Positions 37,546 through 41,704 of a stretch of 41,859 nucleotides of DNA are shown one piece after another. A program made the position numbers and the translations under genes. The DNA comes from Gammaproteobacteria bacterium (GTDB lineage: Bacteria; Pseudomonadota; Gammaproteobacteria; Methylococcales; DRLZ01). Below the pieces are notes generated by a model. The model was not told the origin of the DNA, ran no database searches, and saw only the letters and a program-made list of their open reading frames with translations. How positions within the stretch are numbered: position 1 is the first letter of the stretch; each line of letters starts with the position of its first letter. The stretch covers positions 1 through 41,859 of the forward strand of contig JAHZJL010000140.1 of the NCBI GenBank assembly GCA_022600935.1. Direction: 5' to 3'.

Positions 37546-37824
37546 ATGTTGAATAAAAATCAGATAACTCAACTCAAGTCTCGTGCTCACCACCTTAAGC
37601 CTGTGGTAACCACCGGCCAGGCCGGCCTCACAGATGCGGTACTGGAAGAAATTGAGATTGCTCTCAACCACCATGAGCTGATCAAGGTCAAGGTACGCAG
37701 TGGAGACAGGGATGACCGCAAGCAGATCATCAACAGCATCCAATCCAAAACCCAATCGGACATTATTCAAGTTATCGGCCAAATCGCCGTCCTGTATCGG
37801 AAAAATCCAGACAACCATGGATAG
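37546..37824 (+). CDS. yhbY: YhbY family (CRM-domain) RNA-binding protein
   Basis: LKSRAHHLKPVVTTGQAGLTDAVLEEIEIALNHHELIKVKV; ATG 37546. Confidence 0.93.
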   Translation: MLNKNQITQLKSRAHHLKPVVTTGQAGLTDAVLEEIEIALNHHELIKVKVRSGDRDDRKQIINSIQSKTQSDIIQVIGQIAVLYRKNPDNHG

Positions 37825-38722
37825 CTTAATTCAACACCTGAATAATCAGTTCGGCATTGCCGGACATCTGAAAATCACTCAGAAAAACCCTCAATTCGCT
37901 TTCATTGAAGTACACAGCTCTCTGGCCACCGCAGTTGTTTCGCTGTATGGAGGCCATGTACTTGAATTCAAACCAGTTGATCAGAACGAACAATTGCTGT
38001 TTGTCAGCAACCAGGCATTGTATCAAACCGGAAAGGCCATCAGGGGAGGTATTCCGGTGTGCTGGCCGTGGTTTGGTGCTGCACCCGACAGCACTGGACC
38101 TGCACACGGCCTGGTTCGGACTCGCCCCTGGCAATTGCGCAAAACAGCACTGGCTGATGATGGATCAATCGACATCACTCTTGGTATACAGGACGACGCT
38201 GAAACCCGGAAAATCTGGAACCACCGTTTTGATCTGTCGCTGGTAATCACCATTAACCAAACCCTGTCGTTACAGTTGATCACATACAATACCGGCAATT
38301 CCGAATTCAAGCTGACCCAGGCATTACATAGCTATTTTCTGGTTGGGGACAGTCGATCTGTTCAAATCAAGGGGCTTGAAAATCTGTCTTACATCGATAA
38401 AACTGACGATGGACAACTCAAACAACAACAAGGATGTGTATCAATATCGGAAGAAACAGACCGCGTTTTCAATACCGAATCCGAGCCTCGATTGACATTG
38501 CTCGATCCTTCTTTGTCTCGAAGCACTGACATTCAATCAAACAACTGCCGCACAGCAGTGGTCTGGAATCCCTGGAAGCACAAATCCGAGTCCATGAAAG
38601 ACCTGGGTCATTCAGATTACATGCGATTTGTCTGTATCGAGACGGCAAATGCAGGTAACAATGTCATTCATGTAAAACCAGACAGCAAATTTTCATTGTT
38701 TGCTCAATACCGGGTTATTTAG
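37817..38722 (+). CDS. D-hexose-6-phosphate mutarotase (aldose 1-epimerase superfamily)
   Basis: GKAIRGGIPVCWPWFGA, PAHGLVRTRPWQL, VVWNPWKHKSESMKDLG, FVCIETANA; ATG 37817 overlaps the yhbY stop. Confidence 0.9.
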   Translation: MDSLIQHLNNQFGIAGHLKITQKNPQFAFIEVHSSLATAVVSLYGGHVLEFKPVDQNEQLLFVSNQALYQTGKAIRGGIPVCWPWFGAAPDSTGPAHGLVRTRPWQLRKTALADDGSIDITLGIQDDAETRKIWNHRFDLSLVITINQTLSLQLITYNTGNSEFKLTQALHSYFLVGDSRSVQIKGLENLSYIDKTDDGQLKQQQGCVSISEETDRVFNTESEPRLTLLDPSLSRSTDIQSNNCRTAVVWNPWKHKSESMKDLGHSDYMRFVCIETANAGNNVIHVKPDSKFSLFAQYRVI

Positions 38723-38782: not shown

Positions 38783-38800
38783 CCGCGTCATATCACACAC
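38783..38800 (+). promoter_or_regulatory. Diverged third copy of the 18-bp near-palindromic site found in the 48-bp palindrome
   Basis: CCGCGTCATATCACACAC matches CTGTGTCATATCACACAG at 15/18 positions. Confidence 0.45.
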
Positions 38801-38893
38801 TTTTTTATTTAAATCCAACTTTAAACCAAAACACCCGGATAGAGACCGAAATATATCTTACTGATATCACAATACTATTTCTTCTAATTATTC

Positions 38894-38941
38894 AAAACTG
38901 TGTGATATGACACAGTTAACTGTGTCATATCACACAGTTTT
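38894..38941. promoter_or_regulatory. 48-bp perfect palindrome, composed of two inverted 18-bp near-palindromic sites; candidate operator (alternatively a hairpin terminator)
   Basis: AAAACTGTGTGATATGACACAGTTAACTGTGTCATATCACACAGTTTT; sites at 38898-38915 and 38920-38937, centres 22 bp apart. Confidence 0.6.
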
Positions 38942-39343
38942 AGCTTTTTGGATTCTAAAGCTGGCCGAAGAATCCACTGCCAGTACTGCATTGTAAAGAA
39001 TTCACAGCGTTGCAATAGAAACAACAATAAACAAACCCAATAAGTTATTTACACTATATATCAGCATCTTAAACAATCTCCACTCGAATTGAACACTTCA
39101 ATTTCAAGATCGTAACCTTATCAAAGCACCCTGAGCATCCAGAATCTCTTATAAACTATTGGCATCTTTATTGCTTGTTAATCCTCGGATTGAAACAACT
39201 GTTCTTTCCATACAACAAAAATACAAACATGCCCCGCCATTCCTTACTATACAAGGGAAACTAGCTGTTGATTTTTTACAACAACACTGCATAACAACAG
39301 CTATGGGGATGAAAAATGATTAACACATTGGCAAGGTGAAACA

Positions 39344-41704
39344 ATGAAAACAACACTGTTAAACACAATGCTTGGCTTTATAACCAGCATCGTGTTTTTA
39401 AGTTCAGCGACTATGGCTGCTGAGAACCAAGGGGACAACAACGAATCCTATTACAAACAAGTCAGTGATCAACAGGTTGCCGCTTACACAGGCGAAACCA
39501 TGGTCATTACGACAGCACATAAACTTTTTCCCAATACAACAATTGCAACACCAAGCTTCCAGGTCAGTGAGGAAGCTATCAACAAAACCAATTTAATTAC
39601 AGCATCTGATGCCATCAAACTGGCACCCAGTGTACAGGTGCGCCGCCGTTTCTATGGCGACACCAATGGCGTCACCGCAATTCGCGGGTCCACCAACTTC
39701 CAGACCAACCACTTCAACATGTTTGTCGATGGCATCCCTCTCCACAATCCGGTTCAAACCAAGTGGAATGGCGCGCCAAAATGGTCATTGATTGCTCCTA
39801 ACGCCATCCATTCGGCAACTGTGTTCTATGGCCCCTACTCAGCCGAGCATCGTGGTGCATTCGGCGGTACATTCGATCTGAAAACCAAGTTACCGGAAGA
39901 ATTCGAGATGCATTTCGATGTCACCGGCATTATTCAGGACGCCAAACGCTTCGGAAAAAATGAGGCATTAACCGGCCACAAGGAATTTGTTTCAGCAGGC
40001 AACCGCTTTGACAAATTTACTGTGTTCGCTTTTTACAACCATCTTGAGAATCATGGCCAGCCTCAGAATTTTCCTGTCACTGAAAGCCCAAGACCAACAG
40101 GAACCGCAGGTGACCCGACAACAGCAGTCAGAGGCGCGCGCTTTCCTGAGGCATTATCCGGAAACCCCAGCGTCATTTCCGGTGATTACGGCGTAAACAC
40201 CAACGAATTTGATTTGTATCAGATTAAACTTGGATACGATTTTACCGAAGATTTGCGCGGCTTGTTTACCATGGCGTACGAACGTATTCATCGCGGCAGC
40301 CAGGCCAGAACCTATCTTAAAGATGCCAATGGTAATGCGGTATGGAATGGCCTTGTCTCACAAAACGGTGTCGAGTTTGAAGCCAATCCATCCTCATTTG
40401 GTCGAGGTGTGCTAACCGGCAACGAAGATGAACGTCAAACCTTAATTTATGGCTTGAATCTGTCAGGAAAAATCTCGGAAAACTGGAGCATTGACACCAC
40501 TGCCAGTTATTTTGATGCATTCAAGGATCAAAACCGTGAATCCCGGTTCAGCACCAAAGACCCACAATTTGCAACCGATCCGTCCGGACGCATTACCGAT
40601 ACCAAAGTCTGGTGGGTTGATTACAGCGCCAAACTGGCAACAGACAAATTATTCGATCGCGACGATTTAGGGATGATGGTTGGCTATCAGTTCAACCATT
40701 CCTATTTGAAATTGCGCCAGTATAACTCGGACGATGTCGTTGCCGGGACTCGCGACAGTGCCAGAACACGAAATTTTAACGGTGGTTCCACGCAAACCAA
40801 TAGCGTTTTCATGCAAGCTGACTGGGATATTACCGACCAGATCAATATTATGGCCGGCGCACGTTATGACCACTGGCAATCTGAGCGCGGCCATATTAAC
40901 AATAACGACTTACCGGATCGGGACGCATCACGAGTCTCTCCGAAAGCGTCGTTATCGTTCACTCCAACTGAAAAGCTTAATTTCCGATACTCCTTCACTA
41001 AAGCATATCGTTTCCCGGTTGCCGAGGAACTGTTTGAAAGCTCGACCAATACCAATTCAGTCAATATCTCTGACCCGAATCTGGGACCGGAAAACGGCTT
41101 TTTTCATGATTTAATGGCGCAATACGAGTTACCTGGCGGTTACGTTAGAGCATCAGTGTTCTACAACAATATTGATAATGAAATTCTGCGCACCCAAACC
41201 CGCTTGACCAATGGCGGAACAAGCAACCGGACTCGCAGCATCGACGAAACTGAAACAATCGGTATCGAGCTGGTTTATGAACAGGATTACATTTTCGACC
41301 TGCCAATCGGCTTGTCCATGAATGGCACCTGGTTGAATAAGGAAATCAAGAAGGACTCAAACAATCCTGATCTGGTCGGCAATGAATGGCCTCGAATTCC
41401 CAGATGGCGAGCCAATGCCACAGCTACGTATCACACGACTGAAGAATGGGATAACATCCTCAGCGTGCAATATCGCAATGATCAGTTCAGCAACGAGAAC
41501 AACGATGATGTCAACCAGGGCGTGTTCGGGACTTCCAGCGCGTATGTACTGGTTAATTTCAAAACCATGTACAGCCTGGATGTTGGACATGGCATCACAA
41601 CCCGGTTCTCGGTTGGTATCGACAACATACTCAACGAGTCATATTACGACTTCCACCCTTATCCGCAGCGCACGTATTTTGCCAACATTGCTGTTGATAT
41701 CTAG
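39344..41704 (+). CDS. TonB-dependent outer membrane receptor
   Basis: Signal peptide, TonB-box-like ETMVITT, plug domain (AIRGSTNFQTNHFNMFVDGIPLHNP), C-terminal beta-barrel ending NILNESYYDFHPYPQRTYFANIAVDI. Confidence 0.92.
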   Translation: MKTTLLNTMLGFITSIVFLSSATMAAENQGDNNESYYKQVSDQQVAAYTGETMVITTAHKLFPNTTIATPSFQVSEEAINKTNLITASDAIKLAPSVQVRRRFYGDTNGVTAIRGSTNFQTNHFNMFVDGIPLHNPVQTKWNGAPKWSLIAPNAIHSATVFYGPYSAEHRGAFGGTFDLKTKLPEEFEMHFDVTGIIQDAKRFGKNEALTGHKEFVSAGNRFDKFTVFAFYNHLENHGQPQNFPVTESPRPTGTAGDPTTAVRGARFPEALSGNPSVISGDYGVNTNEFDLYQIKLGYDFTEDLRGLFTMAYERIHRGSQARTYLKDANGNAVWNGLVSQNGVEFEANPSSFGRGVLTGNEDERQTLIYGLNLSGKISENWSIDTTASYFDAFKDQNRESRFSTKDPQFATDPSGRITDTKVWWVDYSAKLATDKLFDRDDLGMMVGYQFNHSYLKLRQYNSDDVVAGTRDSARTRNFNGGSTQTNSVFMQADWDITDQINIMAGARYDHWQSERGHINNNDLPDRDASRVSPKASLSFTPTEKLNFRYSFTKAYRFPVAEELFESSTNTNSVNISDPNLGPENGFFHDLMAQYELPGGYVRASVFYNNIDNEILRTQTRLTNGGTSNRTRSIDETETIGIELVYEQDYIFDLPIGLSMNGTWLNKEIKKDSNNPDLVGNEWPRIPRWRANATATYHTTEEWDNILSVQYRNDQFSNENNDDVNQGVFGTSSAYVLVNFKTMYSLDVGHGITTRFSVGIDNILNESYYDFHPYPQRTYFANIAVDI

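Follow-up and report, generated by a model that had tools for sequence, protein, structure and literature searches.

The palindrome and its surroundings

The window, i.e., the whole analysed stretch of 41,859 nucleotides, contains a gene for a mutarotase-type Aldose_epim protein (37817-38722), followed by three copies of an 18-bp box, a predicted sigma-54 promoter, and a gene encoding a TonB-dependent receptor (Table 1). Two of the boxes lie within a segment that is identical to its reverse complement at each of its 48 positions, as the original prediction had described. Both match CTGTGTSATATSACACAG without mismatches, and each is self-complementary at 16 of 18 positions; their coordinates agree with the claimed distance of 22 bp between the centres. 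The third copy had also been claimed and is reproduced here with three mismatches, at a distance from the first box that is near 11 helical turns. The three box matches in the window compare with 0.02 in dinucleotide shuffles. Model R1, built from aligned box pairs (24 training rows), matches the palindrome with an E-value of 2.3e-10, the palindrome pair itself being among the training rows, and the third box alone with an E-value of 0.1.

Table 1 Features of the locus, of the other box sites in the same genome (G000), and of the candidate regulator
Feature	Position	Strand	Sequence or basis
Third activator box	38783..38800	.	CCGCGTCATATCACACAC; 15/18 (3 mismatches); 115 bp upstream of box 1
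Perfect palindrome, 48 bp; paired activator boxes (predicted enhancer/UAS)	38894..38941	.	self-complementarity; model R1
Activator box 1	38898..38915	.	CTGTGTGATATGACACAG; pattern match
Activator box 2	38920..38937	.	CTGTGTCATATCACACAG; centre 22 bp from box 1
Predicted sigma-54 promoter (GG-N10-GC, -24/-12)	39159..39175	+	TTGGCATCTTTATTGCT; score 9.7
TonB-dependent receptor, predicted target gene	39344..41704	+	Plug and TonB_dep_Rec barrel
GG-N10-GC elements, other five G000 sites			ATGGCATGGAAAATGCT, TTGGCATTATATATGCA, ATGGCAACAATACTGCT, TCGGCACGAATAATGCT, TCGGCATGATTAATGCT
EBP (sigma-54 enhancer-binding protein) gene, candidate activator	L018:5262-6212 (G000:C37)	-	Sigma54_activat, AAA lid, HTH_8
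DsbD_2-type multi-pass membrane protein gene, beside the C37 pair	L018:6231-6974	-	

The receptor gene agrees with the earlier placement of the box cluster about 400 bp upstream of a TonB receptor. Its product matches PF00593 (E 2.3e-43) and PF07715 (E 2.7e-11) and resembles heme/siderophore receptor models, scoring below every NCBIfam cut-off; a PDB sequence search found no relative among solved structures. That the gap contains no Fur box, as stated before, holds: upstream of the receptor, the best GATAATGATAATCATTATC-like 19-mer reaches 12/19, the level of shuffled sequence (mean 12.2). Matches of a sigma-70 promoter scan are at chance level. The -24/-12 element between the boxes and the receptor, which was absent from the original prediction, lies 221 bp downstream of box 2, and the receptor ATG follows 170 bp later; about 6% of random positions score at least 9. 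Against Rfam, the window and five sibling loci gave no match at gathering thresholds, and therefore no known riboswitch or RNA was found there.

Recurrence of the boxes and their association with predicted sigma-54 promoters

The genome that contains the window (G000, 3.89 Mb in 305 contigs) was searched for the box with up to three mismatches, which gave 15 places per strand versus two for the reversed control pattern. Pattern and model searches together yielded a list, incomplete as it is, of six intergenic sites: five next to TonB receptors and one at a redoxin/DUF3570 locus. Besides the window, box sites at C64, C77, C37, and C221 (pairs in the latter two) each flank a TonB receptor and lie in divergent intergenic regions, while the site at C183 flanks a redoxin gene next to DUF3570. 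The 18-mer is thus not confined to the window, and its absence elsewhere was the outcome that would have counted against the original prediction: it is found at five further sites in G000, and TonB receptor genes are preceded by it in relatives as well. Receptors among the targets score below any copper-family cut-off; the one at C37 has the TonB-copper family as its best NCBIfam match, likewise below the cut-off. Further three-mismatch matches, inside open reading frames at C170, C176, C206, and C228 and overlapping one at C279, were treated as chance occurrences.

A -24/-12 element (score at least 9, within 320 bp) is present between the box and the gene at all six G000 sites, compared with 6.3% of positions drawn at random from these loci, and the boxes are located 70-220 bp upstream of it in each case. 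The genome also encodes RpoN (PF04552, E 6.5e-66, at C27). Across 35 sites in the order, 22 have such an element versus 6.8% of random positions (binomial p ~1e-17, a value overstated because sites within a genus are not independent). The distance between box and promoter clusters at about 59-71 bp in the relatives, against 221 bp in the window. Several box pairs in the relatives, upstream of pmoC and some receptors, have no recognisable -24/-12 element.

Sites in the relatives were located with the single-box pattern; nevertheless, most of them contain a second box with its centre 20-22 bp away (14 at 21 bp, six at 22 bp, and five at 20 bp). As a search with one box still recovers pairs at most sites, the pair spaced by two helical turns constitutes a conserved architecture.

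A candidate sigma-54 activator linked to a DsbD_2 membrane protein

The pair at C37 lies between a TonB receptor and the genes of a DsbD_2-type membrane protein and a sigma-54 EBP, the latter starting 18 bp after the former. The EBP carries no N-terminal sensor domain: its homology starts at residue 6, directly at the AAA+ domain. The Walker A motif, GAFTGA, and the HTH are conserved in 68 homologues, and the recognition helix RDT(L/M)LYR is common to families f1, f3, f5, f7, and f8. In the membrane protein, His31, Cys32, Met35, Cys36, Pro162, and Cys163, which belong to the motifs HCxGMCG and PCG, show no variation among 82 homologues. Because the motif is also present in the generic DsbD_2 family, the Cys/His/Met arrangement does not prove metal sensing. 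An AlphaFold2 model of the protein (pLDDT 87) had no significant Foldseek match in the PDB, and a PDB sequence search gave no match either.

The two genes are closely associated. The EBP gene directly follows the DsbD_2 gene in 48 loci examined, nearly all of them in methanotroph records, and a scan of named genomes placed the closest DsbD_2 relatives (~55-65% identical) almost exclusively in records named as Methylococcales methanotrophs. In L073, L084, and f5 relatives the two are fused in one open frame (566-611 aa in f5), which, at the level of sequence, implies a functional partnership. Members of the DsbD_2-linked EBP subfamily are 54-70% identical, compared with at most 51% for other EBPs. 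The subfamily is present in a single copy in G000, G001, G005, G021, G024, and G027; it was not found in G006 in a search that also covered six carrier relatives. The EBP at C37 is most likely the activator that acts on the boxes. The literature searched contains no description of the DsbD_2-EBP pair as a regulator.

G016 encodes a second EBP of the same subfamily at C11 (L217:3820-4827), with no adjacent DsbD_2 gene, with the recognition helix RDQLNYRI instead of RDTLLYRM, and with a box pair ~100 bp upstream. This paralogue could bind the same boxes. It was rejected as the main regulator, given its different recognition helix and the single copy of the subfamily in the other box-bearing genomes checked.

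Among 31 relatives, R1 matches (E<=0.003) occur in 21 of the 23 with the DsbD_2-EBP pair and in none of the eight without it (Fisher p 6e-6, inflated by relatedness and by the training of R1 on pairs from some of the positives). Six of the negatives come from one family, and two negatives (G009, G015) are drafts. Within family f2, the one genome with the EBP is positive for the box and the two without it are negative. Family f7 carries the EBP and an adjacent receptor, yet gives no R1 match. In its genomes, TTGTGTCATATGACACAA-like sites occur singly, next to a gene of the CRP/FNR family and not far from a copper-type TonB receptor (L062:5985, L065:5696). A replacement of the regulator in f7, with the DsbD_2-EBP pair still carried, is possible from these sequences.

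Box pairs at copper-responsive operons

Copper availability decides the methane oxidation mode of methanotrophs, and copper-repressed genes (mopE, surface cytochromes, TonB receptors) have been catalogued in Methylococcus. In Methylococcus genomes, one box pair, together with a -24/-12-like element, precedes a CCP_MauG (SACCP-type) gene followed by a MopE gene (Cu_bind_CorA, E 3.8e-72); other pairs precede a nine-haem cytochrome and heavy-metal ATPase loci.

Three copper-responding clusters have been described in M. capsulatus Bath (PMC4831470). The same paper gives a sigma-54 promoter, ATGGTTCGCATTTTGCT, in front of MCA0424, a gene with increased transcript levels under copper limitation; Fur and IHF sites were suggested, and the accessible part of the paper names no sigma-54 activator (PMC4831470). 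The exact ATGGTTCGCATTTTGCT is found in five genomes of the G016/G020 genus (L180-L184), upstream of a cytochrome operon of the MCA0424 type, and each of the five carries a box pair ahead of this promoter, at a distance of about 70-100 bp. G016 has a further pair in this region, ~22 kb away and upstream of a TonB receptor. The published IHF sequence, TCTCAACGCATTG, occurs exactly in L180 and overlaps one box of the pair; judging from this overlap, the IHF assignment may be wrong. G016 is apparently M. capsulatus-like, given its match to both the promoter and the IHF site. Because the box and the promoter stand in front of operons with published induction under copper limitation (MCA0424-type and MopE/SACCP), the regulon is read as one of copper starvation. 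The mmoX upstream region of G016 contains no box, and the box system is therefore not the whole copper switch. The copper literature searched, mostly without subscription articles, names no regulator of mopE or MCA0424-type genes, which is not proof of novelty.

The pmoA family (PF02461) was not found in the 85%-complete assembly of the window's genome; it is present in the genus mate and in 24 of 31 genomes. Box pairs are also found upstream of the pMMO operon in G005, G021, G025, and G029 (L241:3955-3990, L242:3501-3536, L243:3345-3384, L244:3332-3365; e.g., CTGCGGCATATCCCACAG..CTGCGGGATATGCCG), ~1.1 kb before pmoA; AmoC was confirmed in L241 and L244 at 126-145 bp. As no clear -24/-12 element is located near these pairs, the regulator may act differently on pmoCAB in that family.

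Two further sites extend the range of neighbouring genes. In the genus mate G001, an MtrC/MtrF-like multihaem cytochrome (L044:2084-4840) has a paired UAS and TTGGCACAGATGATGCT, which suggests, from sequence, that extracellular electron transfer is under the same control in this genome. In G007, a NosR-like protein (FMN_bind and Fer4_5; L063:3939-6167) starts 45 bp from a CTGCGTCATATGACACAG site.

Discussion

The palindrome is probably an enhancer (upstream activating sequence, UAS) of the sigma-54 promoter that drives the TonB receptor, bound by the DsbD_2-linked EBP within a copper-starvation regulon. At the sequence level, this reading draws on the boxes and their pairing, the sigma-54 elements, the DsbD_2-EBP pair and its fusion, the co-occurrence of EBP and box, and the published copper-repressed operons; the mechanism proposed adds EBP binding, copper as the signal, the membrane protein as the sensor, and activation on starvation. 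Dimers of the EBP would bind both 18-bp boxes, whose spacing is about two helical turns, via the Fis-type helix-turn-helix, and the third box, in helical phase about 11 turns off, may add affinity. The DsbD_2 protein would sense copper, or a copper-dependent thiol state, and hold or release the EBP accordingly. When copper is scarce, the EBP would assemble on the UAS and the DNA would loop to sigma-54 RNA polymerase at 39159-39175, which would then transcribe genes for outer-membrane receptors and other copper-acquisition functions. About as likely as not is a broader version, in which a membrane-embedded DsbD_2 copper sensor directly controls the EBP, to which it is sometimes fused. The pair would then be the master activator through which gammaproteobacterial methanotrophs acquire copper, and in one family its control might extend to pmoCAB.

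In the original prediction, the boxes were operators at which a dimeric or tetrameric repressor of the classical kind may control the receptor. Near-palindromes paired two helical turns apart do suit cooperative repressors, and the boxes recur at receptor promoters; the predicted paired protein-binding site upstream of TonB receptors is retained here. The repressor itself is improbable: at all six G000 sites the boxes lie well upstream of the predicted promoter rather than at it, they co-occur with -24/-12 elements and a sigma-54 EBP, and no other regulator gene was found in association with the sites, except for the CRP-type gene in f7. This distance and the co-occurrence with the EBP favour an enhancer that activates from upstream. 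The f7 gene raises the question of a CRP/FNR-type activator, as TGTG-N8-CACA resembles CRP sites and the TTGTGTCATATGACACAA-like sites stand next to a CRP-family gene in L062 and L065. These sites, however, are single, have no -24/-12 elements, and are unmatched by R1; moreover, no CRP-family gene was found at the other sites examined and pairing at 20-22 bp is not a CRP feature, which makes such an activator extremely unlikely. The other proposal made earlier, a bidirectional hairpin terminator after the mutarotase gene, finds some support in a 22-pair hairpin with a T-rich tail and in matches of a terminator scan on the + strand. It is nonetheless very improbable, because the boxes at C64, C77, C37, and C221 lie between genes that are transcribed divergently, and a terminator would have no function there; besides, the conserved feature is the 18-mer with its spacing, not a hairpin with a U-tract. 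As a secondary role, the hairpin could still terminate transcription downstream of the mutarotase gene.

More weight, within an unlikely range, is given to the same enhancer and EBP responding to a signal other than copper, such as another metal, thiol/redox state, or membrane stress. The EBP has no sensor domain, like PspF; DsbD-type membrane proteins handle thiol electrons; and the targets include the redoxin/DUF3570 locus and receptors below any copper-family cut-off. Against this, the Methylococcus targets match published copper-limitation genes, including a MopE/CorA-type Cu(I)-binding protein, and heavy-metal ATPase loci are among the targets. The enhancer of a copper-starvation regulon is thus the preferred reading. 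What is offered here is a cis element, a promoter class, and a candidate regulator that is single copy in most genomes checked. If correct, they would represent a new type of metal-responsive control, in which a DsbD_2 membrane protein acts on a sensorless sigma-54 activator.

Comparison with known systems

The proposed system shares with NtrC/NifA-type regulation the upstream dyads (here TGT-N10-ACA-like), their tolerance of distance to GG-N10-GC promoters, and an activator with a Fis-type HTH and a GAFTGA motif. It differs in the box sequence, which is distinct and nearly always doubled at 20-22 bp, and in the activator, which is linked to a DsbD_2 membrane protein and has neither a receiver nor a GAF domain. 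PspF, the phage-shock EBP on which membrane-associated proteins act in trans, likewise starts at its AAA+ domain; with such an organisation, control of the present EBP probably comes from a partner protein. Here, however, the partner is a polytopic DsbD_2 protein with invariant His, Cys, and Met residues, sometimes fused to the EBP, and the regulon is different.

The copper clusters of M. capsulatus Bath, with MopE/SACCP, share the box pair upstream of the MCA0424 promoter and of the MauG-MopE operon; the accessible part of that work suggested Fur and IHF sites, in contrast to the sigma-54 activator proposed here (PMC4831470). The control of sMMO by MmoR/MmoG and MmoQ/MmoS is likewise a copper-dependent, RpoN-linked regulation in methanotrophs (PMC7994243, citing RpoN/MmoR work in M. 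trichosporium OB3b). It differs in that mmoX of G016 is not preceded by a box, and the sMMO switch therefore appears to be a separate branch.
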